Part shown: positions 3,136 to 61,889 of the stretch, in pieces
Layout of the letters: each line of letters opens with the position of its first letter
Numbering within the stretch: position 1 is the first letter of the stretch
From: Halomicroarcula saliterrae
GTDB lineage: Archaea > Halobacteriota > Halobacteria > Halobacteriales > Haloarculaceae
Direction: 5' to 3'
Assembly (NCBI RefSeq): GCF_031624395.1
Contig: NZ_JAMQON010000008.1
Coordinates: forward strand, 62,001-126,000
Length of the DNA stretch: 64,000 bases
Notes under the pieces: model-generated
Seen by the model: only the letters and a program-made list of their open reading frames with translations
The model's database searches: none
Told to the model about the DNA's origin: nothing
Position numbers and translations under genes: made by a program

Positions 3136-3322
3136 TAGACCCATCTAAAGTTAGAATGAGTATAAACTAAAACTCGGTCTGATGGGCCTCAATATGTTTG
3201 GTTTGAAGCCCCAGTGAGAGTGTGACCGGTAGACCCGAGTTTTGAACTAGCCCTGAAGCTCGCCACCGAATTCGATTATCAGGTCGAGGACCTGTTCTGG
3301 TGGGGCTACCTCAACCGTGACC

Positions 3323-4414
3323 TCAGGATACTCGACCCTGCTGCTGTGTACGGCCAACTTCGTAATTTCCCTCCAGTAGCGTCTCGACGAACGGCGAACT
3401 GTCGAACAGTTCCTGAATGTGCAAGACGCCCGCTGGTTGTGACGATCCCACCAGTTCCGATGTAACTTGAACTGCAACGAGTGCCGTCGCGCGGGCCTGG
3501 TCTGGCCCACGAACCCATTGTTCGATGCGGCTGAGGCGACCGTTCTTCGAGCCGCGAACCGCCGTCTTGATGACCGATTCGTCGGAACCAACCGGAAGGG
3601 TGTCGGCCAGTTTCACGATAATGTTGACGCCGAGCATCGACACGACCGGCTGGAACAGCCCAGTCCGACGTAACGCTGCCAGGTAGCGGGTGACAACACG
3701 AGAGTCGTAACAGAGTCGGCTTTCCACCGTGGGGATGTCCGTAGTCCGGGCGAGCACCTGTTGATCCGCGAGATTCGCTCGATACGCCCGCCGTCGCCCC
3801 CACTCCGGAATCCTGACCATTCGCGGCTCCGTGAGACCAGTCACAGAAATTGATTGCTCGGAATTCTGCACTGAAAAGCGCCCGAACGCGTCTTCGACGG
3901 TCCATTTGATCGTATCCGGGCCGAATGCTTCGCCGAGACCGAGGAGCAACGTGATGTCGGCCCTGTCGACGGTATCGAGTTCGGCAGCCGCATCGGAAAC
4001 AAACAGGTTTGTCATTCCTGGGGACAGACCCACGCTGAGGACAGCTGTAGATCCGTTCTTACGGGCGATGCCATCGGCTGTTTCGATGTCTCGGAGAAGT
4101 GAATCGTCCGGTGAGATGTCGACGTAGTCGATACCGCGCTCGAAACAAGATCTGGCGAACGTGGCGTCCGCTGCATCGAGACACATGACGACCGTTCCGA
4201 CGCCAGCGAGGGACTCATCGAATGACTCCTCGTTCACGTCGAGCGTACGAGCATTCACTCCTGCAATAGTGTCGGCGAAGCGATGTGCCTTTTCGGGGGA
4301 ACGGCCAGCCGCAATAACCTCTTCTGACACGCTATTGGCCAATTCATTACAGACCGTGCGGCCGATGGTCCCGTATCCGCCGACAACGAGAATCGCGTCA
4401 CCGGTAGCAGTCAT
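3323..4414 (-). CDS. Saccharopine-dehydrogenase-like NAD(P)-binding protein
   Basis: A 363-residue protein that starts with a Rossmann dinucleotide-binding motif (VVGGYGTIGRTV, about residues 10-21), followed by a second short motif (MCLDAAD) and a conserved SVGLSPGMTN segment typical of the saccharopine dehydrogenase-like superfamily. The substrate is unknown; members include dehydrogenases and trans-acting enoyl reductases. It stands alone, downstream of a separate promoter. The last residues (RTQQQGRVS) are not acidic or conserved in style, while another frame just past the stop encodes a plausible acidic tail down to 3247, so the 3' end may have shifted frame. Confidence 0.7.
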   Translation of the reverse strand: MTATGDAILVVGGYGTIGRTVCNELANSVSEEVIAAGRSPEKAHRFADTIAGVNARTLDVNEESFDESLAGVGTVVMCLDAADATFARSCFERGIDYVDISPDDSLLRDIETADGIARKNGSTAVLSVGLSPGMTNLFVSDAAAELDTVDRADITLLLGLGEAFGPDTIKWTVEDAFGRFSVQNSEQSISVTGLTEPRMVRIPEWGRRRAYRANLADQQVLARTTDIPTVESRLCYDSRVVTRYLAALRRTGLFQPVVSMLGVNIIVKLADTLPVGSDESVIKTAVRGSKNGRLSRIEQWVRGPDQARATALVAVQVTSELVGSSQPAGVLHIQELFDSSPFVETLLEGNYEVGRTQQQGRVS

Positions 4415-17174: not shown

Positions 17175-17523
17175 TGTGGTGGTGGTCGGTCTTGTCGTGA
17201 CGCGCGTTTCGAGCCAGTCCGTGACCGGAATCGACGCACGTCGAGTTCTGTTCAGATCGCTCGAGCCGTTCCTGACGGATTCAGAGAGATCGTTGTTGTC
17301 GGGGTAGCTCAATCCTGTGTCCCATATTTTGTATGTCCATTCCTCTTCTCCACAATACTTTGGACGGCTGCTGGAGACATAACCGGCTAAGTCCGTTTGC
17401 TGACCCAGCAAATCGCTCCGTCGTTTAAGAATACTCTCTCGTTGTCCTGTTCTCCCGAGAATGCACGCCGGCGATACGAATCCACGTGGAGGACACGGAA
17501 AAGCACATGAGGGGTAGAAGGAC
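17175..17523. other. Intergenic region with a perfect inverted repeat
   Basis: No convincing gene. It holds the 17-base repeat at 17396-17412, a TATA-like TTTAAG at 17423-17428 (plus strand) and an 18-codon open frame from 17461 (MHAGDTNPRGGHGKAHEG) of doubtful meaning. It may be the remnant of a lost HTH-DUF7521 promoter. Confidence 0.4.
17396..17412. promoter_or_regulatory. Operator-like repeat TTTGCTG-ACC-CAGCAAA
   Basis: A perfect 7-base inverted repeat with a 3-base centre. The same 17 bases occur at 29119-29135, where they sit next to the TATA box of a HTH-DUF7521 operon. Here no such regulator is adjacent, so the site may serve the DUF302-SHOCT operon (start 17174) or be left over from a deletion. 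Confidence 0.6.
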
Positions 17524-26355: not shown

Positions 26356-26655
26356 ATGAGCACGACTACCAGCAACACCGCAAACCGTACTGACCAAGCT
26401 GAGGATGCAGTCCGAGAACTGAACGCGATTGCACTCGGGGCATCCGGAGCGATCGTCGCAGCAGCCGTGATGCTACTGCTCGGTGTCTTCGGTGCTGTCG
26501 GAGTGTACGAGGGTGCGGTAGCGATGATGGAACAGTGGCACCTGTTCTTCGAACCGACCGTCGTCGGAACGGTGGCGGGCATGGTCGAGGCAACTGTCAT
26601 TAGCTTCGTTCTCGTGTACGCCTTCGCGTGGTTGTACAACGCGCTCGCACGGTGA
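26356..26655 (+). CDS. Two-helix membrane protein, DUF5676-like
   Basis: A 99-residue protein from ATG 26356 with an acidic N-terminus and two helices (about 25-50 and 70-95) ending LVYAFAWLYNALAR. The shape and the final AWLYN match DUF5676, small proteins often next to copper genes in bacteria. It may be co-transcribed with the SRPBCC gene 33 bases later. The family call is tentative. Confidence 0.55.
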   Translation: MSTTTSNTANRTDQAEDAVRELNAIALGASGAIVAAAVMLLLGVFGAVGVYEGAVAMMEQWHLFFEPTVVGTVAGMVEATVISFVLVYAFAWLYNALAR

Positions 26656-26688
26656 GCGAAGGAAAAATGAGAGCGTGGAGAGACCACC

Positions 26689-27222
26689 ATGTATGTCACT
26701 GACAAAGCCGAAATCGTCATCGACGCATCGCCCGAGGAGATCTGGGACTACGTAACTGACCCCGTCCACTGGACGGCATCGAACCCCGAGGAACACTACG
26801 GACTCGAATACGACACACCCGATAATCGCCCACAAGAGGGGGCGACATTCCACCAGGCGGAAGAAGTCGCTGGGATGTACGCCGATCTGCACGGCCGATT
26901 TCAGTACATCGATCATCCACACGTGGCGGTCTGGACTGGGACAGCGTACTATCCACTCCTTCGTGGACTTGTCACCGTTCGAATCCCCGAAGGTGGTACG
27001 ATTCGGCTCGAAGAGACTGAGGATGGAACCCGGATGTCACACGCCGTCTGGATGGACTTCCCGAATAACCGCCGGGGCCGGTTGCTAAAGCGGCTCTTTA
27101 CCACCGTTCTTGACGGGAAGGCCAAGCTCTACGACCACACCAACAAGGAGCTCGTCTTCTTCAAGGAACGCATCGAGTCGACAGCCCATAAGCCCCCAAA
27201 ACCGACGGACGAGAGTCCGTAG
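26689..27222 (+). CDS. SRPBCC (START-like) ligand-binding protein
   Basis: A 177-residue protein beginning KAEIVIDASPEEIWDYVTDPVHW, the typical first strand and helix of SRPBCC folds, and ending with a long C-terminal helix (LLKRLFTTVLDGKAKLYD). The fold binds hydrophobic small molecules; the ligand is unknown. It is followed by the USP gene after 24 bases. Confidence 0.75.
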   Translation: MYVTDKAEIVIDASPEEIWDYVTDPVHWTASNPEEHYGLEYDTPDNRPQEGATFHQAEEVAGMYADLHGRFQYIDHPHVAVWTGTAYYPLLRGLVTVRIPEGGTIRLEETEDGTRMSHAVWMDFPNNRRGRLLKRLFTTVLDGKAKLYDHTNKELVFFKERIESTAHKPPKPTDESP

Positions 27223-27246
27223 CAACATCAACGCACTCATCCAACC

Positions 27247-28146
27247 ATGTATACCGACATCCTCATCCCGACTGATGGCAGCGATAACGTCGAGCCCGCA
27301 ATCCAATACGGACTTGAGCTCGCTCGCCGATACGACGCAACTGTCCACGCGCTCCACGTCGTCGACAGTTCGCCCATCGAGCGAAAGCTGGAACTGACTG
27401 CGCTGGAAACCGACCTGGAGACACTCCCAGACACGTGGTATGAGGCTGGCGATGCCGCCACCAAGCAGATCGAAACTCGAGCTGCAGAACATGGTCTCGA
27501 CGCAGTAACTGAGGTTCGCCGTGGCATTCCAGCGCGTGAAATTCGTTCCTACATCACCGATACCGGGATCGACCTCGTCTGTATGGGAACCCGAGGACAC
27601 ACCGGTCTCGACCGAGTCCTGCTCGGCAGTGTAACGACCCGACTCGTCCGTACTGTCGATATCCCCGTGCTCAGTGTCAAAGCAAAACAGGCGCTATCAG
27701 AACCCGGAATGCGGGGAGGCTTTGAGACTATCCTCGTCCCGACTGACGGGAGTAAGCCCGCACGAGAGGCAGTCACGCACGCTCTTGATTTGGCTCGGAC
27801 GTACGATGCGACACTTCATGCCCTCTACGTTGTGGATAGAGGTGCCTACGCGTCTCGTCCGGGATGGACGTGGGACGAACTGCAGCAAGTACTGGAGCAA
27901 AACGGAGAGACTGTCCTCGAAGATGTCCAGTCCCGGGCAACTGCCGACGGTGTTTCAGTCGCTGCTGAGATCACCCACGGTGTTCCTCATCAGGCAATCG
28001 GAGATTACTGCGATCAACACGGAATCGACCTCGTCGTGATGGGAACACACGGACGGTCCAGCCTTTCACGACGGATCATCGGAAGTGTGACCGAACGGGT
28101 TCTTCGGAACTCGGACGAGCCAGTATTGACCATTCGAGGAGTATAG
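27247..28146 (+). CDS. Tandem universal stress protein
   Basis: A 299-residue protein of two USP domains (about 1-145 and 157-299). Each has the start MYTDILIPTDGS or FETILVPTDGS and an ATP-binding loop near its end (MGTRGHTGLDRVLLGSVTTR and MGTHGRSSLSRRIIGSVTER), so both probably bind ATP. It is a cytosolic stress protein. A single-domain relative occurs at 59697-60146 in the second DoxX/HTH module. Confidence 0.9.
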   Translation: MYTDILIPTDGSDNVEPAIQYGLELARRYDATVHALHVVDSSPIERKLELTALETDLETLPDTWYEAGDAATKQIETRAAEHGLDAVTEVRRGIPAREIRSYITDTGIDLVCMGTRGHTGLDRVLLGSVTTRLVRTVDIPVLSVKAKQALSEPGMRGGFETILVPTDGSKPAREAVTHALDLARTYDATLHALYVVDRGAYASRPGWTWDELQQVLEQNGETVLEDVQSRATADGVSVAAEITHGVPHQAIGDYCDQHGIDLVVMGTHGRSSLSRRIIGSVTERVLRNSDEPVLTIRGV

Positions 28147-28158
28147 CCGTGGCTCGAG

Positions 28159-28434
28159 CTACCGGCGAAGCGAGATGAGAAGAACCACGAATCCGAGACC
28201 GATGGCGACCGATTCGATGATGTGGACAAGGGCGAGATCAAGCCCCCCGAACTCGAACAGTACTCCTTCGATGAACACACCGAGGGTAATAATTCCAAAG
28301 CCAACTGCAGCGTTTCTCATATAGTACGTCCCTGTTCGTCGATACGCCTCGAAACTGTAGTACGTGATCAGAATACCGAGGGCAAGGACAGCCAGGCGGA
28401 CGGCCACGAGAACGGCTGTTGTCGTATCCACCAT
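28159..28434 (-). CDS. DUF7521-like small membrane protein
   Basis: A 91-residue protein with three helices, related to the next gene (RLAVLALGILITYYSFEAYRR matches KLVTMVLGFVIAYQAYRGYRR). It is the third gene of the HTH-DUF7521-DUF7521 operon, 3 bases after the second. These small membrane proteins accompany winged-helix regulators in haloarchaea. Their function is unknown. Confidence 0.75.
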   Translation of the reverse strand: MVDTTTAVLVAVRLAVLALGILITYYSFEAYRRTGTYYMRNAAVGFGIITLGVFIEGVLFEFGGLDLALVHIIESVAIGLGFVVLLISLRR

Positions 28435-28437
28435 TAG

Positions 28438-28725
28438 TCAGTCCTCCAGTTTCTGCGGGTCACGTCCGTATAGAGCGTAGAGGATCGTGAGCATACCAAT
28501 CGCGACGATGGTTGTTGCCACCGTTCCCGCATTATGTAAGGTCAGGCCAACCACGTCGAACAAGATTCCTTCGACGATCGCGCCGAAGCTGATAATGGCG
28601 AACCCGACCGCGAGGTACAGCATCGATTGACTGTTGCTACGTCGGTACCCTCGATAGGCCTGATAGGCGATCACGAATCCCAGAACCATTGTGACGAGCT
28701 TTGCGACGATGAGTCCGGGGTGCAT
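28438..28725 (-). CDS. DUF7521-like small membrane protein
   Basis: A 95-residue, three-helix protein from ATG 28725, just 2 bases after the regulator stop, so translation is coupled. It shares VIAYQAYRGY and the C-terminal MLTILYALY with the copies at 61614-61889 and the fragment at 59280. A central Glu (GAIVEGILFD) is conserved among the copies. It may be a membrane partner that signals to the winged-helix protein; this is inference from constant pairing. Confidence 0.75.
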   Translation of the reverse strand: MHPGLIVAKLVTMVLGFVIAYQAYRGYRRSNSQSMLYLAVGFAIISFGAIVEGILFDVVGLTLHNAGTVATTIVAIGMLTILYALYGRDPQKLED

Positions 28726-28727
28726 GG

Positions 28728-29078
28728 TTATTCGTTCCTCATTGTGTTCCACAACCGAGCAAATCTGTCGGGCGCGTCTTCTCGAAGTTCGATACGGATG
28801 TCGAATCCTGATTCGAGGAGCTGGACCTCGACGCGGTCGAGTTGGGCTTCGTATTCGCTGTAATGATGACCGTCGGGATCAACGTGCGTTCGCTCGATAA
28901 GCAGATCGTACTCCAGTAACGTGTTGACCCGTCTGGAAACTGTCGAGACTGACATGTCACACTCTTCGCTGAGTTCCTTGGCGGACAGCTGTTTTGGGCG
29001 AGTCGCCTCGAGGATGGCGCGTGCATAGTCGTCGTCAAGGATTTCGAGAATCCCCGAGATGTCTCGCTCCTCACTCAC
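28728..29078 (-). CDS. Winged-helix regulator paired with DUF7521
   Basis: A 116-residue protein with LDDDYARAILEATRPKQLSAK, ELSEECDMSVSTVSRRVNTL and a wing around HVDPDGHHYSEY. It has no cysteine ligand except Cys in EECDMS. A TATA box at 29101-29108 would place transcription at the start codon, so the mRNA is probably leaderless. A perfect inverted repeat sits 10 bases beyond the TATA box. Its closest relative is at 61260-61610 with the same gene order. Confidence 0.8.
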   Translation of the reverse strand: MSEERDISGILEILDDDYARAILEATRPKQLSAKELSEECDMSVSTVSRRVNTLLEYDLLIERTHVDPDGHHYSEYEAQLDRVEVQLLESGFDIRIELREDAPDRFARLWNTMRNE

Positions 29079-29100
29079 AATCCGTGTTGTTGTGGGTGGG

Positions 29101-29108
29101 TATATAAA
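29101..29108 (-). promoter_or_regulatory. TATA box of the HTH-DUF7521 operon (leaderless)
   Basis: TTTATATA on the minus strand is centred about 27 bases from the start at 29078, the spacing expected for a leaderless haloarchaeal transcript. Confidence 0.6.
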
Positions 29109-29117
29109 GGAACGCCG

Positions 29118-29136
29118 ATTTGCTGACCCAGCAAAT
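29118..29136. promoter_or_regulatory. Operator-like repeat ATTTGCTG-ACC-CAGCAAAT
   Basis: A perfect 8-base inverted repeat with a 3-base centre, between the divergent HTH (29078) and cupredoxin (29195) genes and 10 bases upstream of the HTH TATA box. Its inner 17 bases are identical to 17396-17412; a diverged form is at 61203-61219 in the same place before the paralogous HTH gene. Probable binding site of this HTH family. Confidence 0.7.
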
Positions 29137-29194
29137 CTGCTTTCCGGACTATATGCCCAGACCGTGTAGGTTCACCTGTAAGGTGACCGATGCC

Positions 29195-29842
29195 ATGACC
29201 GATTCACTCACGCGTCGACGGATGCTCCAGCTGACTGGCGGTGCGGCAGTCGTTGGGCTTGCCGGGTGCACTGGAACGCAGAACAACGATGGCGGAGCGG
29301 CAAACGGCACGCCGACTGAGACTGGCCACGACGACGGCGGCACGGAGTCCGGTCACAGCGACGACGAGGATGACCACGACGAAGCAGTCGGGGCACCGTC
29401 CGATACGGCCGAGGTGCGGATGATTACCGAGGACGGTGGCTACCACTTCGAGCCCCACGTCGTGCGGGTGAACGTCGGGGGAACGGTCACCTGGAACAAC
29501 GAGAGTGGGAGTCACTCGACGACCGCCTACCACCCCGACAACGACCAGCCCCAGCTCGTCCCCGACGGCGCAGCGGCCTGGGACAGCGGCATCGTCTCCG
29601 AGCAGGGTGCGACGTTCGAACACACCTTCGAGACCGAGGGTGTCTACCACTACTACTGTACGCCCCACGAGAGCCTCGGGATGATCGGTAGCGTCATCGT
29701 CGGTGAGCCGGACCCCCACGAGCAGGTCGCACTCGAAGAGCCGCCGGCCGACAAGCCCGAGCGCGTCCGCGAGAAGCTCGAAGAACTCAATGGGATGATT
29801 CGGACGGCACTCGGCGACGACCACGAAGAGGACAGCCAGTAG
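29195..29842 (+). CDS. Cupredoxin Tat lipoprotein with His/Asp-rich linker
   Basis: A 215-residue protein from ATG 29195. It has a Tat motif (TRRRMLQLTGG), lipobox LAGC, a His/Asp-rich linker (GHDDGGTESGHSDDEDDHDE) and a cupredoxin domain with ligands in SHSTTAY and YYCTPHESLGM. The His-rich segment may bind additional metal. It ends with a short helical tail. It diverges from the HTH-DUF7521 operon across the inverted repeat and is a likely member of its regulon. Confidence 0.85.
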   Translation: MTDSLTRRRMLQLTGGAAVVGLAGCTGTQNNDGGAANGTPTETGHDDGGTESGHSDDEDDHDEAVGAPSDTAEVRMITEDGGYHFEPHVVRVNVGGTVTWNNESGSHSTTAYHPDNDQPQLVPDGAAAWDSGIVSEQGATFEHTFETEGVYHYYCTPHESLGMIGSVIVGEPDPHEQVALEEPPADKPERVREKLEELNGMIRTALGDDHEEDSQ

Positions 29843-29902
29843 ACCCACATAGCTTTCCCACCGTAGCAAGCACTTCTCATCAGGACGGAGGAGCGTCGAC
29901 GG

Positions 29903-30328
29903 ATGGGTATTTCAACACAGCACCAAGATCGACCACTCGCGCTCTGGGCACTCATCGCGACGATTGGTGTGCTCGGCGTGTCGGGACTCGCCGGCGGCGG
30001 CCAGTTCATCCTCGCTCCCTCGGGGCGTCTTATTGGAATCTCGCCGACGCTTCTGGCTGGTTCCCCGTTCGATAGCTATCTGGTTCCCGGGGTCATCCTC
30101 TTCAGTATCCTCGGTGTGTTCCCGCTGGTCGTCGTGTACGGCCTCTTCCGTCGAAAACGATGGGCGTGGCCGGCGGCCATCGCCGTCGGCGTCGCGCTCG
30201 TCGTCTGGGTCCTCGTCGAAGGGGCCGTCATCGGATTCGGGAAACGGTTGCAGTATCCCCACCTAATCCAGGGTGTGGTGATTGTCGGTCTTTCAGTTCT
30301 TCCCTCTGTTCGAGCGGCTCTCAGATGA
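29903..30328 (+). CDS. Four-helix membrane protein, unknown
   Basis: A 141-residue protein with four predicted helices (about 13-35, 58-82, 88-110 and 118-136). It has no conserved motif that I recognise. Its 3' end overlaps the convergent protease-like gene by 8 bases. It may be co-transcribed with the cupredoxin 60 bases upstream. Confidence 0.6.
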   Translation: MGISTQHQDRPLALWALIATIGVLGVSGLAGGGQFILAPSGRLIGISPTLLAGSPFDSYLVPGVILFSILGVFPLVVVYGLFRRKRWAWPAAIAVGVALVVWVLVEGAVIGFGKRLQYPHLIQGVVIVGLSVLPSVRAALR

Positions 30329-30854
30329 GAAGATTGTACCCGACGTGGGCGAGCGAAAGTGCGAGATACCCGAGCACGAGTGCCGCCAGGGTTCGCCGAG
30401 AGAGTGATGGGAACCCGATGTCGTCGGAGCCGTGAATCCGCTCGCCGAGTGCGTACGCGAACCGCCCGGCGAGTAACGCGAACGGCAGGTGGACGAACAC
30501 CAGCGGGAGCACGAGCGAGTCGAACCGGACTGTCGCCTCCAGCCGCGACAGGTACTCGAGTTTGAGCACGAGTTCGAGGAGCGCAACGGTCAGCCCGGAG
30601 GCCACGGTCGCGAGCAACCCCTCGGTCTTCGAGAGGAGCGTCCCCCGACGGTAACTCCAGCCGTAGAAGACGAGTATCAATGGGACGAACCGGACGAATG
30701 CCTCCTCGACGAGTCCGACCAGAAGTGTCCAGGTCGCGAGGGTCGTCACTCCGAGCAAGAGAAGTTCGAACTGGTAGGCGATCCACACGCCGACCCCGGT
30801 CACGACGCTGCTCACGCCCACGAGCCCGACCAACGACCGATACTGGAGCGTCAT
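30321..30854 (-). CDS. CPBP-like intramembrane protease family protein
   Basis: A 177-residue membrane protein from ATG 30854. It carries EEAFVR (Glu50-Glu51-x3-Arg55) and HVGYN (His170-x3-Asn174), the first and last metal-site motifs of the CPBP (Abi/CAAX) intramembrane proteases, plus His122 in VFVHLPF. About six helices. PrsW proteases are an alternative with a similar EE motif. It diverges from the Lon-like gene at 31000, so two protease-type genes share one control region. Confidence 0.6.
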   Translation of the reverse strand: MTLQYRSLVGLVGVSSVVTGVGVWIAYQFELLLLGVTTLATWTLLVGLVEEAFVRFVPLILVFYGWSYRRGTLLSKTEGLLATVASGLTVALLELVLKLEYLSRLEATVRFDSLVLPLVFVHLPFALLAGRFAYALGERIHGSDDIGFPSLSRRTLAALVLGYLALSLAHVGYNLLI

Positions 30855-30948
30855 GAGTGGTGATGAGACTGTGTCTATCCGTCGGTGCGCGACCGAAATA
30901 GGCGTACCCGTTCGAAACGCGTACACGAAGAGCATTTATTACTGCACC

Positions 30949-30967
30949 CGTGTTACATAGTAACACG
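30949..30967. promoter_or_regulatory. Operator-like repeat CGTGTTAC-ATA-GTAACACG
   Basis: A perfect 8-base inverted repeat with a 3-base centre between the divergent protease-like genes. A TATA-like TTTATT at 30935-30940 lies just upstream for the plus-strand gene, so the repeat would overlap the transcription start and could block it. The binding protein is not identified in this window. Confidence 0.6.
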
Positions 30968-30999
30968 CAAACCCCAGCGTAGCCACGCACCATACTGCT

Positions 31000-31734
31000 A
31001 TGCCCACCGATGACTCCGCGTCCGTCTCTCGCCCGTCCGATACGGAAAGAGACGTTGTAGGACGGGTGGAAGAGACGATTCTGTCACGGCGAGGGTTCCT
31101 CGCAGGACTCGGCCTGGGGGGCGTCGGCGGCGCTGGGGTGGTTCTCGGTCTCACGCGAGCGGGAGAAGGATTTCAGTCGCTGGCGACGCTTGCGGGTGGA
31201 GCCACGCTTCCCGCGACAACACGCTACTATCTTCCAGCGGTCGACGGCTCGGGCGACGGGCTCGTCGTCCCGTTCGAGTTCGATTTCACCGACGGGGACG
31301 GTGAGCTGTTCGTCAACCTGAACGGAATCGAAGTCCGTCACGACCTCCAGCTCTCGCTCCGAGAAGCGAGGGAGACGGCCACACGTCTCACCGGAGAGTC
31401 GCTCACCAACATGGCGACGCACATCACGTTCGAGCCCCCCTCGTCCGGCGTGCTTGCACTCCGCGGGAAGAGCTGGGAGGCCGGGCTTACCGTCGCACTC
31501 GTTGCTAGCCTCCGCCAGCAGTCGCTCTCACAGGAGACGCTCATGACGGGAATCGTCGACGACGAGGGCGCGTTGCTCCCCGTCGGCGGGATCGAGACGA
31601 AAGCGCGCGCGGCGCGGGCAGTCGGCGCACGGGAGCTAATCATCCCGGCAAGCGAACCGACGGACGTGGCTGTTCAAGGGCTCCGAATCGTCGAATCTCC
31701 CTCGATTACAGATGCACTCGACCGGATTCTGTGA
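31000..31734 (+). CDS. Membrane-anchored Lon-like (S16) protease domain
   Basis: A 244-residue protein. A Tat-like motif (SRRGFLAGLG, 29-38) and hydrophobic stretch anchor or export it. Residues 115-244 resemble the Lon proteolytic domain: candidate catalytic Ser158 in RGKSWEAGL, the conserved TGIVDDEGALLPVGGIETK with Lys201, and the AARAVGARELIIP helix-strand unit. No AAA ATPase domain is present. Archaeal Lon-like proteins without ATPase (COG1750 type) exist, but the Tat-type leader here would put it outside the membrane. Ser motif spacing differs from classic PSAG, so activity is unproven. Confidence 0.7.
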   Translation: MPTDDSASVSRPSDTERDVVGRVEETILSRRGFLAGLGLGGVGGAGVVLGLTRAGEGFQSLATLAGGATLPATTRYYLPAVDGSGDGLVVPFEFDFTDGDGELFVNLNGIEVRHDLQLSLREARETATRLTGESLTNMATHITFEPPSSGVLALRGKSWEAGLTVALVASLRQQSLSQETLMTGIVDDEGALLPVGGIETKARAARAVGARELIIPASEPTDVAVQGLRIVESPSITDALDRIL

Positions 31735-31837
31735 CCGGGGCGTCTCACTGCTGATTGGGTCCAAGGAGCGAATCGGTCCAGCCTAGCCGATGGCTTACGG
31801 GAAACGATTCAAGAGTCGGGTCGGCGTAGCTCAGGGT

Positions 31838-34615
<2,778 letters not shown>

Positions 34616-34641
34616 TAAGGGGCAACTATCCTGAGTGACAA

Positions 34642-35898
34642 ATGGTATTAGAGACAACTACTTCACGATCTGAAAGTTTCCGCTCTCGCTCACAGCAGTC
34701 GTCTGAACCGTTACCGCGAATCCAACGCGTGGCAGTACTCGGTGGGGCAGTCGGCGGTCTCGCCGCTGCTGAAGGCTTTTCCAAGCGAGGTTTCGAAGTA
34801 GACCTTTTCGAACGTCAGTCGTACGACGACAAACGAGTCAACTGTGGGGAAGCGATGACGGCCGTCTCGAAGATTCCACTCCGTTCGATGTCGGCGAATG
34901 GGTTCGTCAATGCTCTTCCGGAGTTACGTGTGGATATCTACGACGGAACGACATCCAGCAGACAGCACACCGGGAGTGGGAGATTCCCGGCCTCCGATAC
35001 GTACATCACCGACCGAAACATCGTTGAACGACGATGGTCCGAACGCCTCGCTGAAAAGGGCGTTTCGATTCACGAAAACCACCAGATCACGAAGGCGGAG
35101 TTCCGGACGTTGGCCGATAAATACGACCTCTTGGTCGACGCGACTGGCCAACCGTCGATTACCAGCAAAGTTCGAGGGAGAACGGACGAGTACGCGGGTC
35201 GGATGATCGCCCTCAATGCTGACGTGGAGGGCGACTTTTCAGATCTCTACCCGAATAGCCAGATCGTTCTTGAGGGCTATACCGGGTACGCGTGGGCGTT
35301 CTCGAAATCGCCCGAGCGGGCAAACGTCGGCATCGGGTGGACTGAGAGCGAACGCCCAGCCGATTACATAGCCGCATTTGAGGCGGCGTGTGAACGAAAC
35401 GGCTGGCCGATACCATCTCGGAGTCAGACGAATATCGCTATCATCCCCGAAGGACCGAGTCTCGATCCTGCGCTGACCTATCTACCTGAGTGGCCCGTCG
35501 TTCGTGTCGGGGATGCGGCTGGACTCGCGAATCGGCTGACCGGGAAGGGGATCTCGCAAGCAATTCAGTCGTCGTATCTCGCAGCCAAGTTGACGGCGGA
35601 GGGAAGCCTTCAGGAGTATCCAGACCGACTCTATCGGACGATGAAAGGGGAGTACCTGCTCGCCCGGATTATGCGGCACCTCGTCGAGACGCGTCAGATG
35701 ACCGTTCTCGGTGATGCCGTCCAAGTGGTGTCTGGAATCGACATCGAAGACATCGATCGATCCCCACGGGCGGTTCTTCGTCGCTTCTTGGGGCATCCAC
35801 GGGTGGCTGCTCGGATCTTCTCCAACCCGGCTGTAATCAAGCAGACGTATGCCGCCGTCACAGACGCCTGGGAATACGATACTATTCAGCCAGTATGA
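34642..35898 (+). CDS. FAD-dependent oxidoreductase, geranylgeranyl-reductase-like
   Basis: A 418-residue flavoprotein with an FAD-binding start (VAVLGGAVGGLAAAEGFSKR, about 30-49), a Cys in RVNCGEAMTA typical of geranylgeranyl reductases, and the second FAD motif VRVGDAAGLANRLTGKGIS. Such enzymes saturate isoprenoid chains of archaeal lipids or quinones, though related flavoproteins have other substrates. It follows aconitase by 26 bases. Confidence 0.8.
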   Translation: MVLETTTSRSESFRSRSQQSSEPLPRIQRVAVLGGAVGGLAAAEGFSKRGFEVDLFERQSYDDKRVNCGEAMTAVSKIPLRSMSANGFVNALPELRVDIYDGTTSSRQHTGSGRFPASDTYITDRNIVERRWSERLAEKGVSIHENHQITKAEFRTLADKYDLLVDATGQPSITSKVRGRTDEYAGRMIALNADVEGDFSDLYPNSQIVLEGYTGYAWAFSKSPERANVGIGWTESERPADYIAAFEAACERNGWPIPSRSQTNIAIIPEGPSLDPALTYLPEWPVVRVGDAAGLANRLTGKGISQAIQSSYLAAKLTAEGSLQEYPDRLYRTMKGEYLLARIMRHLVETRQMTVLGDAVQVVSGIDIEDIDRSPRAVLRRFLGHPRVAARIFSNPAVIKQTYAAVTDAWEYDTIQPV

Positions 35899-35962
35899 CG
35901 GTATCGGAGAGATCACCCCGAAAAGGGCTCTCTATTCCGGTATGGCGAGATCCCAACGCGAT

Positions 35963-35969
35963 TTTATAA
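35963..35969 (+). promoter_or_regulatory. TATA box of DoxX gene (leaderless)
   Basis: TTTATAA centred 28 bases before ATG 35994, the spacing for a leaderless transcript. Confidence 0.55.
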
Positions 35970-35993
35970 CACCTTCCCGGGAATTAGCACGAT

Positions 35994-36547
35994 ATGGCAT
36001 CTCAAGAAGTTCAATTAGAAAGTACGATCGGGGGGTTCACCGCAAGCGGTCGACTACACACGTTGAGTGTCTGGTTTATCTTTGCGCTTCGGTTGATGAT
36101 GGGACTGGCGTTCTTCCAGAGTGGTCTCGACAAGGTCCTCTCGGGAAGTTTTAGTGCCGGTGGATATCTCACCGGGGCCGTTCCGAATAGCGGGAGTCCA
36201 CTCGCTGATCTGTTCGTCGCGATGGGGAACACGCCGTGGTTTGTTGACTTCGTGAACGTTGCAGTACCGTGGGGAGAGCTGCTTATCGGCCTCGGGTTGT
36301 TGTTCGGTGCCCTCACTCGGCTCGCTGCGTTCTGGGGGGCATTTATGATGCTCATGTTCTATTTCGGCAACTGGGATGTCACACATGGCTACATCAACGG
36401 TGATTTCGCGTACATGCTCGTGTTCCTCTCAGTCGCCGCGTTCGGTGCGGGACGGATACTCGGCCTTACGCGTACATTGAACAGTACGAGGTTGGTGGAG
36501 TGCCGCTTGTCGAACGGCATCCCTGGACTCAGTATCTACTCGGGTAA
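35994..36547 (+). pseudogene. DoxX-family gene with a 1-base C-terminal frameshift
   Basis: Up to GAGRILGL (about residue 158) the product matches DoxX proteins closely, including TASGRLHTLSVWFIFALRL and GELLIGLGLLFGALTRLAAF. Then the frame turns to unrelated sequence and stops at 36551. Adding one base near 36468 restores a homologous tail (AYIEQYEVGG...LVERHPW...YLLG) ending at TAA 36545-36547, parallel to the intact copy at 60585. The restored gene has 184 residues. The lost base may be a real mutation or a sequencing error. Only the last 25 residues change, so the protein might still work. Confidence 0.8.
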
Positions 36548-36553
36548 GTAAGC

Positions 36554-37234
36554 GTGTCATCAATAGATACCACTATTACGAATCCCGGTGCTTGGGGCCT
36601 CGCGATTATCTTCATTGTCGTCGTTTCTTGGTTCTTCTATCGGTACTTCGCTCCTGACAGCTGGCGGGAGTGGGTCGGCGCAGGAGTGGTACAGGCGTTC
36701 ATCATCGCATTATATGCGGAGATGTACGGGTTTCCACTGACGATCTATCTGCTGGTCCGGTTTTTCGGTCTGGACCGCGAGTACGTCAGTACCAATCTCT
36801 GGTCTACACTGATCGGGTTTGGCGAAACGGGTATGTTCGTATCAATGCTCCTCGGCTACGCTGTGGCGTTTGTCGGCATCGGCCTGTTTGCTCAGGGATG
36901 GCGACAAGTCTATCGTGCCCGACAGGACGACCGACTGGTCACAGACGGGCTTTACAGGTACGTCCGCCATCCACAATACACCGGTCTGTTCATCGCTCTG
37001 TTTGGCGAGGGCATCATTCACTGGCCGACAATCTTCTCTGTCGCTCTATTTCCGTTCGTCGTTGTGATTTTTACGTGGCTTGCACGGAGAGAAGAGCGTG
37101 ATATGATCGATACATTCGGTGAGGACTACCGCACTTATCAGCGCAAAGTGCCGATGTTTATCCCCCGCTGGGAGCAGTGGCGCGATCTCGTGGCTGAGTC
37201 TCGTAGCAGCAGTGACGATCTCAAAGACCCATGA
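36554..37234 (+). CDS. ICMT/PEMT-like membrane methyltransferase family protein
   Basis: A 226-residue protein from GTG 36554, six bases after the DoxX restored stop. It has five or six helices and the C-terminal motif YRYVRHPQYTGLF with a following REERDMIDTFGEDYRTYQRKV, as in isoprenylcysteine carboxyl methyltransferase and related lipid methyltransferases that bind S-adenosylmethionine. A second member is at 50528-51145 next to CopB. The substrate is unknown. Confidence 0.75.
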   Translation: MSSIDTTITNPGAWGLAIIFIVVVSWFFYRYFAPDSWREWVGAGVVQAFIIALYAEMYGFPLTIYLLVRFFGLDREYVSTNLWSTLIGFGETGMFVSMLLGYAVAFVGIGLFAQGWRQVYRARQDDRLVTDGLYRYVRHPQYTGLFIALFGEGIIHWPTIFSVALFPFVVVIFTWLARREERDMIDTFGEDYRTYQRKVPMFIPRWEQWRDLVAESRSSSDDLKDP

Positions 37235-37404
37235 CTTCGACGAGACCGCTCTGGAATGAATGGTATTCGTATCGAAACTGTGGTTGGGCAGTGGAAGGGA
37301 GTCAGGGATTAATTGCCCGACACCGTAGATGTTCCTTGTCTGTGTCGTCGAATTATTGATAGACGAAATTCAGATTGTGAACTACGTGAGCAGGTAGATA
37401 CCCG

Positions 37405-38739
37405 TCAGTCCGTCATTGCCGCATGTCTCTCGTCACCGCGTTCCCCACCAGCCACCGAATCCTGTTTGTGGAGCCAGTAGAGGAACGCGAAGAACGCCGT
37501 CGCGAGGACGTTCAACACGAGCTTGTAGTTGAGCTCGATGGACACTTCGGCGATCTGCGCGGAGGCTCGTGAGGGGATGAGGCCCAGGCCCAGGAACAGG
37601 AAGTGGACCACGAACCCGGCGATAACGGCGGTGACGAAGATCATCAGACTGAGTACCGCCGCGAAGGTCGTCCCGTAGTACTCGTCGTAGGCTTTCATGA
37701 TCGGCGGGACGATGAGGTCCGCGAAGATGTACGAGAGCACCGACCCGAAGGGGAGCCCGCGCGTCCAGAGGACGGTCCCGAACGGGACGTTCCCGACCGA
37801 ACAGACGAAGGTGACGACGCCGATGATCGCACCCAGCGCGGCCGTCCAGAGGACGTACACCGGCAAACCGAATACGGCGCCAGAGAAGACGCTCGTCCAG
37901 ACGGCTTCGGGGATGAACCCGGCAATGAGGCCGGCGAAAATGAACCCGATAGCGATCTCGTCCCACAGCATCGCCCACTCCTTCCACTGTTTGTCCGCGA
38001 GCGATTTCCACCCGGACCACGAGGTCGCCTTTTCCGGAATCGACGTGTTCGCTTCCTCCGGGTCGAAGGAGTCCTTGCAGGACTGCGAGCAGAAGTAATA
38101 CGTCTGGCCCTCGTGCTCGATGGAGTAGTCGGTTTCCTCAGGGTCGACCTCCATTCCACAGACCGGGTCTTGGACAGTAATGCCCTCGTCGTCGGTGACG
38201 TTCTCGCGTGCTTCGTCGAGGATCTTGTCGGGGACGACGTAGACGAAGCCAACCGACATCAGGCCGATGAGGAGCAGGCCACCGACCACGTCGGCCAGCA
38301 GGAACTCCCAGCCCAGCAGCAGCCAGATGACGATGCCGATTTCGATGACGAGATTCGTCGAGGCAAACTGGAACGCCGCCAGCGCCGCCGCAGCCGACGC
38401 CCCCTTCTTGTAGAGGTTCTTCGCCGTGGCGATGGCCGAGTACGAACACGACGAGGAGACGAACCCGAAGAACGTCGCGAGGCCGATGGAGCGAGGCCCG
38501 TGTCCCTCGAGCAGCTCCGAAATCTGCTGGGTCGAGACCCACGCCTCGACGCCGCCGGCGATGGCGAACCCGATGACGAGCGCCCACCAGGTGATCCACG
38601 CCATCGCGGCGGTCGTCGTCGCGGCCTGCCTCGTGCTCTCCACGAAAAACGTCCCGAGCGGTTTTGTCGTCGTGACGATGCCGATGGCGACGGTGATTAC
38701 GGCGATAACCGAGAGGATCGCGTAATCTGATCTGTCCAT
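37405..38739 (-). CDS. YHS-domain permease (COG0701-type)
   Basis: A 444-residue paralogue of the gene at 23861. It has the paired permease motifs (ATFFGFVSSSCSYSAIATAKNLYKKG and VTFVCSVGNVPFGTVLWTRG) and one YHS domain in the middle (DPVCGMEVD...YYFCSQSCKDSF). The C-terminal YHS domain and His tail of the other copy are missing. Likely a metal-related exporter. An AGAATTTAGAATCAAGGG element lies about 107-124 bases upstream, shared with copA. Confidence 0.85.
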   Translation of the reverse strand: MDRSDYAILSVIAVITVAIGIVTTTKPLGTFFVESTRQAATTTAAMAWITWWALVIGFAIAGGVEAWVSTQQISELLEGHGPRSIGLATFFGFVSSSCSYSAIATAKNLYKKGASAAAALAAFQFASTNLVIEIGIVIWLLLGWEFLLADVVGGLLLIGLMSVGFVYVVPDKILDEARENVTDDEGITVQDPVCGMEVDPEETDYSIEHEGQTYYFCSQSCKDSFDPEEANTSIPEKATSWSGWKSLADKQWKEWAMLWDEIAIGFIFAGLIAGFIPEAVWTSVFSGAVFGLPVYVLWTAALGAIIGVVTFVCSVGNVPFGTVLWTRGLPFGSVLSYIFADLIVPPIMKAYDEYYGTTFAAVLSLMIFVTAVIAGFVVHFLFLGLGLIPSRASAQIAEVSIELNYKLVLNVLATAFFAFLYWLHKQDSVAGGERGDERHAAMTD

Positions 38740-38845
38740 TGTCTTGGTGGCCTACATCTAGGGGCTCCTCTCCTAATGCGGTTGTGGCTACATCTGTGGG
38801 ATATATCGTTTGTGAGCCTTTGGATACCAGCATCACAACCCTAGC

Positions 38846-38863
38846 AGAATTTAGAATCAAGGG
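38846..38863. promoter_or_regulatory. Element shared with the copA promoter
   Basis: AGAATTTAGAATCAAGGG matches 16 of 18 bases with 47034-47051 upstream of copA. It lies between the permease (start 38739) and the divergent gene at 38921. Candidate copper-regulon operator. Confidence 0.5.
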
Positions 38864-38920
38864 GTATGCCACTTCGGGTGCGGAGTAATTGACTTGTGGC
38901 TGGCTGGGGAGGATAGTCGT

Positions 38921-39220
38921 ATGCTTACGTCCTACAGCGAACTTCTCGTGACGGGTATCATTCTCGCGAGCACCGTGTACACGGTGAGTAAAACGCCCGC
39001 TGTCTGGCACCAGTACGAGGGAATATATGGACACCTACTCGTTGGCGTACCGCTCGTTGGGCTACTGTTCGGGATCGCCCATCTCGGGATGCTCACACCG
39101 CTTCCGCATGGCCTGCTCGCTGCAGTTGAAACCGGAGCTCTCCTCGGTGTCATAGTCCTACTCGGCGCACTCGGATATATTCACCCGCGACTTGGGTATT
39201 CTGGAGGAGAATCCCGATGA
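38921..39220 (+). CDS. Three-helix membrane protein, unknown
   Basis: A 99-residue protein with three hydrophobic helices and no known motif. It carries two His (IAHLGM, LPHGL) within or near helices. Its stop overlaps the next start (ATGA), so the two small membrane proteins are probably a pair. Confidence 0.6.
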   Translation: MLTSYSELLVTGIILASTVYTVSKTPAVWHQYEGIYGHLLVGVPLVGLLFGIAHLGMLTPLPHGLLAAVETGALLGVIVLLGALGYIHPRLGYSGGESR

Positions 39221-47123: not shown

Positions 47124-47696
47124 CTAGACTCCGTCTTCGAGACGTTGATACTGGTCTTCGAAGCGGCCACGGCACGACGGACAACAGAAGTGATAGATGT
47201 CTCCGTCGATTCGAGCGGATTCGCCCTCGCTATCGACCGTATTCCCACACTCGGCGCACGTGATTGCGAACTCGGTGCCGTCGAGGTCGTCGACGAGCGT
47301 CACCGAGTACTCCGTTGATGGCGCGTCTTCGAGGAGACCCTCGACCCACCGGCGAACGTTCTGTCCTTCCGCACGACCGTAGAACCATATTTTCCCCTCG
47401 GCAGTGGCGAAGAGGTGTTCGATACCATCCGCGTCGTGGAGCCGGCTTCGAAGTGACTCGATGGCAGCGGTATCGTTTTCGAGCTGGACGAACACCGGAA
47501 CGCCAGCTCGCAGTTGTGCGCGATTCACGTCGACGGTGAAGCCGTTGATGATGTCGGCCTCCTCTAACCGTTTCACGCGGTCTGATACGGCTGGCCCCGA
47601 GAGATCCACCTCCTCACCGATGCTGCTGAACGGGCGTCGCGCGTCCTCTGCTAGTAGCGAGAGGATCTCCATGTCTGTCTCGTCTAAATCACGCAT
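47124..47696 (-). CDS. AsnC/Lrp-type copper regulator with TRASH domain
   Basis: A 190-residue protein from ATG 47696. Residues 1-55 form the Lrp HTH (LDETDMEILSLLAEDARRPF, SGPAVSDRVKRLEE), a middle domain follows, and the C-terminus is a TRASH metal knuckle with CAECG and YHFCCPSCRGRF. In Halobacterium salinarum the same architecture (VNG1179C) is known to control the copper ATPase YvgX. It lies between copA and a copper chaperone, which strongly supports the same role. Confidence 0.9.
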   Translation of the reverse strand: MRDLDETDMEILSLLAEDARRPFSSIGEEVDLSGPAVSDRVKRLEEADIINGFTVDVNRAQLRAGVPVFVQLENDTAAIESLRSRLHDADGIEHLFATAEGKIWFYGRAEGQNVRRWVEGLLEDAPSTEYSVTLVDDLDGTEFAITCAECGNTVDSEGESARIDGDIYHFCCPSCRGRFEDQYQRLEDGV

Positions 47697-52502: not shown

Positions 52503-53138
52503 CTATTGCGCGTTTTCAATCGCTTTCCTTACGTCAACCCAGACTTCATCAGGAGACTGTTTTCCGTCGACACGTTCCAGTTGACCTCGTTCTTCGTAGT
52601 ATTCAATAACTGGTTCAGTGGTCTCACGAAATACACGTAGACGTTCACGGACTGTCTCCTCGGTATCGTCATCCCGCTGCTCAAGTCGTTTTTCAACTTC
52701 AGGATCTTCAGGTGGACTGTATTTTATATGATAAGTGTCCCCTGTTTTTGGGTCTATACGGCGACCCGTGAGTCGTTGAACAAGTTCCTCCTCGTCTACG
52801 TCAAGATATAGAATAACGTCAACGTCGGTCATATTATTGAGTTCCTCAGCCTGTTCTACGTTGCGGGGATACCCATCCAGAACAAAGCCATTGACTTGCG
52901 ATAGAGCCTCTTTAACGAGCAGAGTGACAACCTCGTCCGGAACAAGCTCACCTTGATCCATATATATGCGCGGGACATCATACTCTGATTCAAATTCTGA
53001 AATATCCCTGTCCTTATTTGCCCGAAGGAGCTCCCCGGTAGTGATATGCTTTACATTAAACTCCTCAGAGGCCTTTCTACTCTGCGTCCCCTTTCCAGCA
53101 CCTGGTCCACCGAGGATTAGAATCCGTGGTTCGGCCAT
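52503..53138 (-). CDS. adk: Adenylate kinase
   Basis: A 211-residue enzyme of the long bacterial type, with P-loop GGPGAGKGTQ, the NMP-binding start TTGELLRANK, DGYPRN and the LID segment around GRRIDPKTGDTYHIKYSPP. The LID has no zinc-binding cysteines. It converts ATP plus AMP to two ADP. The gene is noticeably AT-richer than its neighbours, which suggests transfer or a different history. It may be an extra copy. Confidence 0.95.
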   Translation of the reverse strand: MAEPRILILGGPGAGKGTQSRKASEEFNVKHITTGELLRANKDRDISEFESEYDVPRIYMDQGELVPDEVVTLLVKEALSQVNGFVLDGYPRNVEQAEELNNMTDVDVILYLDVDEEELVQRLTGRRIDPKTGDTYHIKYSPPEDPEVEKRLEQRDDDTEETVRERLRVFRETTEPVIEYYEERGQLERVDGKQSPDEVWVDVRKAIENAQ

Positions 53139-61259: not shown

Positions 61260-61610
61260 GTGACTGAGGAGGCCGACCCGTCGGAGGTCTTCGCGACACT
61301 CGACGACGAGTACGCCCGCGACATCCTCGTGGCGACGAAGACCGACCGACTCTCCGCGAAGGAACTCAGCGAGGAATGCGACATGTCACGCCCGACCGTC
61401 TCGCGGCGTGTCACCCGCCTCGTTGAACAGGGCCTCCTCGAGGAGTACACGCATGTCGACCCCGGCGGACGGCACTACAGCGAGTACGAAGCGCGACTCG
61501 AGCGTGTCGAAGTCCTCCTGCAGGCGGAGGGCTTCGACGTGCAGATCGACGTCCGGCCGGACCCCGCCGACCGGATTACGTCAATCTTCGAGGAAATGCG
61601 GGGAGACTGA
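61260..61610 (+). CDS. Winged-helix regulator paired with DUF7521
   Basis: A 116-residue protein from GTG 61260, closely related to 28728-29078: LDDEYARDILVATKTDRLSAK, ELSEECDMSRPTVSRRVTRL and HVDPGGRHYSEYEARLERVE. It is followed by DUF7521 after 3 bases. It diverges from DoxX-SHOCT, with an operator-like repeat in between. It probably regulates both directions. Confidence 0.85.
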   Translation: MTEEADPSEVFATLDDEYARDILVATKTDRLSAKELSEECDMSRPTVSRRVTRLVEQGLLEEYTHVDPGGRHYSEYEARLERVEVLLQAEGFDVQIDVRPDPADRITSIFEEMRGD

Positions 61611-61613
61611 CTC

Positions 61614-61889
61614 ATGGAACACACGTTATTCGTCATCGGCAAGCTGTTCACGACCGTATTGGCCCTCGTCATCGCCTATCAGGCCTATCGCGGATACCAG
61701 CGCCATCGCACGCAGTTGCTTCTGTACGTCGCCGCCGGCTTCGCGCTGGTCGGGCTGGGCGGCCTTCTCGAAGGTGTTCTCTTCGAACTCCTCCAAGTGT
61801 CGATCTTCGAAGCAGGATTCGTCGCAGCACTCGTCACCGCCGCCGGGATGCTATCGATCCTCTACGCCCTGTATGCCCCGAACCCCTGA
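61614..61889 (+). CDS. DUF7521-like small membrane protein
   Basis: A 91-residue, three-helix protein sharing LVIAYQAYRGY, GGLLEGVLFE and the end AGMLSILYALYAPNP with its relatives. It is the partner gene of the winged-helix regulator. Immediately after its stop begins a CopB fragment. Confidence 0.8.
   Translation: MEHTLFVIGKLFTTVLALVIAYQAYRGYQRHRTQLLLYVAAGFALVGLGGLLEGVLFELLQVSIFEAGFVAALVTAAGMLSILYALYAPNP

Follow-up and report, generated by a model that had tools for sequence, protein, structure and literature searches.

Control region of a divergent pair of putative protease genes in a copper-associated haloarchaeal island, with a candidate operator in the Lon-like promoter

The short region separating two divergent genes near the middle of the window (the window being the whole 64-kb stretch of DNA that was analysed) is tentatively read here as controlling a mobile unit of two proteases within a copper-associated island, in which a Lon-like gene would be under a local repressor and the two products would form an ATP-free pair at the cell surface. 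The sequence-only reading that we followed up had described a perfect palindrome in a 145-base gap between the two divergent genes, and both descriptions were confirmed, the palindrome at 30949-30967 and the gap between starts at 30854 (-) and 31000 (+). The features to which the text refers are as follows.

28159-28434: small membrane protein, of the same look as its DUF7521 neighbour
28438-28725: small membrane protein DUF7521, after the winged-helix regulator
28728..29078, - strand: winged-helix regulator HTH_20, 116 aa
29117..29137, no strand: GATTTGCTG-ACC-CAGCAAATC, a palindrome other than that at 30949-30967, lying between the halocyanin gene and that of the winged-helix regulator
29222..29842, + strand: halocyanin (blue copper protein)
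30321..30854, - strand: PrsW/CPBP-like membrane protein, 177 aa
30894..30909, - strand: block CGAAATAGGCGTACCC (+ strand letters), presumed core promoter of the PrsW/CPBP-like gene, a conserved alignment block
30935..30941, + strand: TTTATTA, taken to be the TATA box of the Lon-like gene, from the sequence and a conserved block in the 21-locus alignment
30949..30967, no strand: palindrome CGTGTTAC-ATA-GTAACACG, perfect 8+3+8, candidate operator and perfect form of the conserved imperfect dyad TGTTA-N5-TAnCA
31000..31734, + strand: Lon-like protein, 244 aa, with a twin-arginine signal (RRxFL) and a complete Lon protease domain
31838..34615, + strand: aconitase AcnA

The divergent pair is inherited together. 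The membrane-protein gene was found at 22 places in 20 of 391 genomes from the class, and at each of the 22 the Lon-like gene lies beside it in divergent orientation; the partner was never found apart from the Lon-like gene at these places. Two of the Lon-like copies are damaged or incomplete: a contig end truncates that of L062, and that of L072 carries a frameshift. There are fewer independent cases than these counts suggest, since four loci (L064-L067) gave identical results and several others are near-identical. The Lon-like gene is present without the partner at 2 of 25 loci, in genome G186 and as a shortened copy in Haloprofundus pMHR1. The frameshifted copy is that of the Salinigranum rubrum plasmid unnamed2 (L072/L048), where the Lon-like reading frame is lost after about residue 178 and the partner is intact. 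Plasmid records carry the Lon-like gene in nine cases and the partner in eight.

Within the order (195 genomes), the membrane protein was found in 3, and at least 4 carry a match that spans most of the Lon-like protein, at 45-100% identity. The remaining matches listed in the order lie chiefly over residues 80-226, within long frames, which is what LonB would give, the LonB nature of such long-frame matches being confirmed in the own genome (the one that carries the window) alone. Pattern-based scans of viral contigs yielded no relative of either protein, and 392 genomes of the phylum, searched by profile, gave no distant bridge family, with one marginal 39-residue match in one genome. Since the island matches Halonotius terrestris DNA at 98.8% identity over 4.8 kb and the own genome belongs to the genus of genome G415, it looks as if the island moved recently between genera; the estimated contamination of the own assembly is 4.75%. 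Positions 26466-38951 of the window are, over 12.5 kb, 96.6% identical to a contig of that same-genus genome (G415:C37), a sign of recent spread.

The pair belongs to a mobile copper-associated module that comprises the HTH regulator, two DUF7521 genes, halocyanin and often aconitase, a setting that the sequence-only reading of this feature had not brought in. The context was read from the 25 neighbourhoods with a usable Lon-like match out of 26, in stretches of unequal length and after dropping matches below 40% coverage. The partner gene is present in 23 of the 25, and all 23 partner-bearing loci have homologues of halocyanin, the winged-helix regulator and both small membrane proteins, up to 7.7 kb away. 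In 21 of the 23, halocyanin lies beyond the partner gene at less than 2 kb from the Lon-like start; seven of these have a further small gene in the interval. Homologues of a copper-type P-type ATPase (at least 68%; the window has two) were found in 14 of the 25 fetched neighbourhoods; the ATPase is named copper-translocating in the deposited annotation, and the annotated plasmids carry further copper-related genes around the pair. An aconitase homologue is present in 18 of the 25 neighbourhoods, directly downstream of the Lon-like gene in 12 and inverted about 2.6 kb upstream in 6, and the aconitase and Lon-like genes are possibly co-transcribed. A spare aconitase would plausibly be useful under copper, which damages exposed iron-sulfur clusters.

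The assignment of the Lon-like protein as a protease of the Lon type held up. Its match to Pfam Lon_C (PF05362) is significant (1.4e-9; 38.3 bits against a cut-off of 21.1), and a 15-member profile of the family matched the protease domain of A. fulgidus LonB in the PDB at 3e-11 with Ser and Lys aligned. The corresponding residues, Ser158 and Lys201, aligned to positions that we take to be the catalytic ones of LonB, form a conserved dyad: S158 and K201 are invariant, as are R30, R31, F33 and L34, in the 15 aligned sequences, which were picked from 22 rows by leaving out frameshifted and truncated copies and near-duplicates. No AAA+ domain was found in the 244-aa chain, where Lon_C is the sole domain above cut-off; the NCBIfam LonB model matched the C-terminal part only and far under its cut-off (46.5 vs 516.6). 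An exported protease had been proposed, and an export-type signal is indeed predicted from the RRxFL motif and a hydrophobic stretch, the hydropathy peak of the protein beginning at residue 33. Later starts for the Lon-like gene appear in some deposited annotations; two of these would lose the export signal, a loss that the invariant RRxFL argues against, and they were not adopted.

A Lon domain free of ATPase has a described counterpart in Bacillus subtilis YlbL, presented in PMC6051672 as a membrane-anchored, AAA-free Lon domain with a PDZ domain that is thought to act outside the cell. Like YlbL, the window protein has a Lon Ser-Lys domain without an ATPase; unlike YlbL, it has a twin-arginine signal and different neighbours, no PDZ domain was found in it, and no checkpoint role is implied.

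The description of the partner as CPBP-like fared less well, as no member passes the Pfam CPBP cut-off and the resemblance favours PrsW over CPBP. None of the scanned members passes any Pfam or NCBIfam cut-off, those of CPBP and PrsW included. In 15 of the 21 membrane-protein rows (near-duplicates dropped), E50, E51 and R55 (EExxxR), E94, K98, H170 and N174 (HxxxN) are invariant and H122 is nearly so, and hydropathy peaks are spread over the whole 177-residue protein. A start codon at 30935 was rejected for this gene, its relatives aligning from 30854. The motifs of PrsW come in the order EExxK, helix glutamate and HxxxN, and those of CPBP/Rce1 are EExxxR, HxxxN and FxxxH. Of the intramembrane proteases PrsW (MEROPS M82) and CPBP/Rce1, it is PrsW with which the EExxx(K/R), helix-glutamate and C-terminal HxxxN motifs of the window partner come into register, in one of two comparisons. 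Among the CPBP motifs, EExxxR and HxxxN are present and invariant, and FxxxH is not matched as such.

Profile comparisons gave the same leaning at low scores. Pfam PrsW (PF13367) matched one of the 15 members, at 12.9 vs 23.5 bits (E 0.08) and collinearly over residues 11-176, and CPBP/Rce1 (PF02517) matched none of the 15. With hhalign, 17 PrsW sequences from relatives aligned over 122 columns with EE, E94 and HxxxN in register, at a score of 23.9 and a probability of just 4.7%; this score exceeds all 150 local shuffles (maximum 21.3) and is close to the 22.8 of an unrelated membrane protein. When the PrsW set was restricted to its 11 strong members, the alignment covered 52 columns without HxxxN and scored 22.2. 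The corresponding CPBP score was reached by 11 of 150 shuffles and does not stand out. Such likeness as the partner shows is to PrsW, and we call it PrsW-like, not a PrsW, because of the 22.8 of that unrelated protein against 23.9; it differs from PrsW in being sub-threshold in Pfam, in having R, not K, after the EE pair and in being shorter. A match to YknW was local (one of 15 members, 20 vs 110 bits). A PDB sequence search with the membrane-protein family returned three matches, the best at E 0.84 and none credible, and structure predictions of both proteins from few close relatives were of no use (pLDDT 49 and 36).

Might the membrane protein, instead of being a protease, serve the Lon-like domain as membrane anchor, adaptor or chaperone? 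We regard this as somewhat improbable. The sub-threshold profile scores would fit it, as would a BLAST comparison with the lonB-linked CPBP protein of the own chromosome that stayed at chance level (E 2.8), and an exported Lon domain free of AAA could need a membrane partner; against it stand the invariant EExxxR, E94 and HxxxN and the near-invariant H122, which fall in PrsW register in one of the two comparisons.

The pairing of Lon with a membrane protease is already known, and the window pair varies it, with a stripped Lon that bears an export signal and with a different membrane protein. A single transcription unit of lonB and a CAAX/CPBP-type gene (HVO_0783-HVO_0784) is described for Haloferax volcanii and Natrialba magadii, and deletion of the CAAX/CPBP-type gene is described as viable, with an altered proteome and no evident growth phenotype (PMC9263693, PMC4343526). 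The same sources portray the roles and targets of most archaeal membrane proteases as poorly known. In the own chromosome, lonB and the CPBP gene abut (L130:830-3139 and 3140-3967). This operon, like the window pair, sets a Lon-type gene directly beside a membrane-protease-type gene; its LonB is ATP-dependent, membrane-bound and cytosol-facing and its genes are co-directional, whereas the window pair is without AAA+, has an export-type signal, is divergent and is patchily distributed. The two membrane proteins have no significant similarity to each other. The window pair may be a reduced echo of the chromosomal operon and, if that is true, Lon and membrane proteases are paired in two ways, in an ATP-driven form on the chromosome and in a mobile form free of ATPase.

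The control region offers a candidate for how the unit is switched. The presumed TATA box of the Lon-like gene lies about 7-8 bases ahead of the palindrome. Archaeal transcription is reported to start about 26-27 bases downstream of TATA (PMC4158304) and, given TTTATTA at its position, the Lon-like start would be expected at about 30962-30966, inside the palindrome. The TATA-like part of the membrane-protein promoter is 30894-30902 and ends 47 bases before the palindrome. The conserved dyad therefore sits just after the Lon-like TATA box and overlaps the predicted start site, within the Lon-like core promoter; read in the direction of the other gene, it stands 47 bases ahead of the TATA element presumed there. 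For the TrmB regulator, PMC4158304 places sites downstream of BRE/TATA at repressed promoters and sites upstream at activated ones. The operators of archaeal repressors that it presents (TrmB family, MDR1, Phr) are, like the dyad, inverted repeats with a short spacer that lie beyond BRE/TATA and overlap the expected start; the sequence of the dyad differs from the TACT-N3-AGTA and TATCAC-N5-GTGATA quoted there. The palindrome probably serves as a binding site for switching the Lon-like gene and, because it follows the Lon-like TATA, overlaps the expected start and is 47 bases from the other TATA, repression of the Lon-like gene is, by analogy, its most likely effect.

This same geometry can be turned against the joint control of the two genes that had been suggested. 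The operator may be real and serve only the transcript of the Lon-like gene (with aconitase), the membrane-protein gene being controlled separately and the pair being kept as part of the copper island; the distance of the palindrome from the second promoter is in line with this, as are the two neighbourhoods of 25 in which the Lon-like gene has no partner. We nevertheless find it somewhat doubtful, for the partner is never without the Lon-like gene (22 of 22) and the length of the gap is near constant while other neighbours move: it measures 141-166 bases in 19 of the 21 aligned loci, and 233 and 254 in the other two. The 233-base gap is that of locus L056 (genome G265), where the end of the membrane-protein promoter is seemingly duplicated.

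In the reading set out at the beginning, which we favour, a dimeric winged-helix repressor would bind the dyad and block RNA polymerase at the Lon-like start, and also at that of aconitase where this gene is downstream, until it is released on a stress signal, probably copper. The Lon-like protein would then leave the cell by the twin-arginine route and act outside without ATP as a Ser-Lys peptidase, its partner would be an intramembrane protease of the PrsW/CPBP type, and both may trim or clear damaged envelope proteins, for example the nearby halocyanin. The membrane quality-control or signalling role that had been suggested for the pair is likewise a hypothesis. A more specific version of this reading is unlikely in our estimate: a mobile, ATP-free surface counterpart of lonB-CPBP, in which a Tat-exported Lon domain and a new PrsW-like family would service halocyanin-type proteins under copper stress, with a dedicated repressor over the Lon-like and aconitase genes. 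The degrees of belief that we attach to the competing readings overlap and need not add up to one. As a plasmid-borne recurrent unit with a candidate operator and a candidate stress, the pair is transferable to Haloferax volcanii for direct testing. Among the matches listed in open PMC text, we found no description of this gene pair or palindrome.

We then asked whether the palindrome could be a chance feature laid over ordinary promoter conservation. Its perfection alone is weak evidence, because palindromes are no commoner in the window than in shuffled sequence: with arms of at least 8 bases and a spacer of up to 10, there are 14 perfect inverted repeats against 11-15 in five first-order shuffles. 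The chance of at least one such repeat in a 145-base region of the same composition is 0.0245 (2000 shuffles). The palindrome is the sole match at up to three mismatches in the whole 64-kb window (0.27 expected). A weight-matrix scan gave no second strong site in the window to back a regulon, the best other site, at 52594, being weak (13.6 bits vs 27.4 for the palindrome). The shorter pattern GTTACN3GTAAC has three further occurrences in the own genome (none for the reversed-pattern control), none of which carries the full arms, and TGTTACN3GTAACA was present in 3 of the 17 genomes searched, at the pair locus only in the own genome. A reading of the palindrome as a terminator was dropped, as no T-run follows it.

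The comparison with relatives is more telling. From the control regions of 21 aligned loci, 19 distinct sequences were used for dyad symmetry, and 87 complementary pairs were observed at the palindrome centre against 33.6 expected, which is rank 1 of 159 centres. Counted per sequence in 7-base arms, the pairs number at least four in 17 sequences and three in the other 2. The arm and spacer lengths of this test derive from the window itself; without the window row the count is 80 against about 31.9 expected, in sequences that are akin and hence not independent. The dyad is conserved at the homologous position as TGTTA-N5-TAnCA: the half-sites TGTTA and TAnCA are kept among relatives, the 5-base spacer drifts, and information content peaks at TGTTA...TA.CACG (16 sequences). 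The search for the palindrome elsewhere that had been suggested thus found an imperfect dyad in relatives and the perfect 8+8 form only rarely, in 2 of the 21 aligned loci, namely the window and Halonotius terrestris, whose rows are identical. Taken as a 19-base block, the palindrome ranks 15 of 127 windows in conservation, below both core promoters, in a ranking based on 14 of the 21 sequences. A chance origin would account for the shuffle-like count, the rarity of the perfect form and the better conservation of the core promoters; it is quite unlikely in view of the first-ranked symmetry and of half-sites that are kept while the spacer drifts.

A signalling pair after the site-1 cleavage by B. 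subtilis PrsW, in which the membrane protease would cut a membrane-bound regulator and the Lon-like protein complete or trigger the cascade, has the PrsW-type motifs and the conserved HTH and small membrane-protein genes nearby in its favour and is very unlikely, for no membrane-anchored regulator came to light as a substrate, the regulator close by is a small HTH protein (116 aa) and, to our knowledge, Archaea lack sigma factors.

Several candidates were considered for the repressor that the favoured reading places on the dyad. Copper regulation in Halobacterium is ascribed in PMC3551603 to the Lrp-type sensor VNG1179C, which regulates a copper pump and chaperones. A gene annotated as AsnC-family lies by the ATPase in a Halorarius plasmid and has a homologue in the window at 47124-47696; nothing ties this homologue to the palindrome. 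The three other chromosomal GTTACN3GTAAC sites sit in L001-L003, and that of L003 reached a weight-matrix score of 15.3 bits, more than some of the training sites (10.1-15.1). There, between methyltransferase and LUD-domain genes, an ArsR-family regulator gene (L003:1098-1439; HTH_5 6.6e-10) stands beside TGTTAC-CCG-GTAACA (1497-1517). Relatives of this regulator were found in 16 of 17 genomes (the own, G186 and 15 carrying both pair genes), from 58% identity down to weak matches. It was dropped as controller of the pair: G214 has none and G415 a weak match (1.4e-5), both carry the pair, and the TGTTACN3GTAACA pattern is confined to 3 of the 17.

The nearby winged-helix protein was not assigned to the palindrome at 30949-30967 either, because its own promoter bears a different palindrome, of which it is possibly the regulator. 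The arms of this second palindrome are perfect in eight of nine aligned loci and one base off in Halomarina. It lies upstream of both TATA-like elements, an activator-type position. A copy with two mismatches is found at 17394-17414 (0 in 100 shuffles), and the core TTTGCTGN3CAGCAAA occurs at just two places in the own genome, both within the window. A second pair of winged-helix and small membrane-protein genes lies at 61260-61889, with a partial TGCTG-AGT-CAG dyad upstream.
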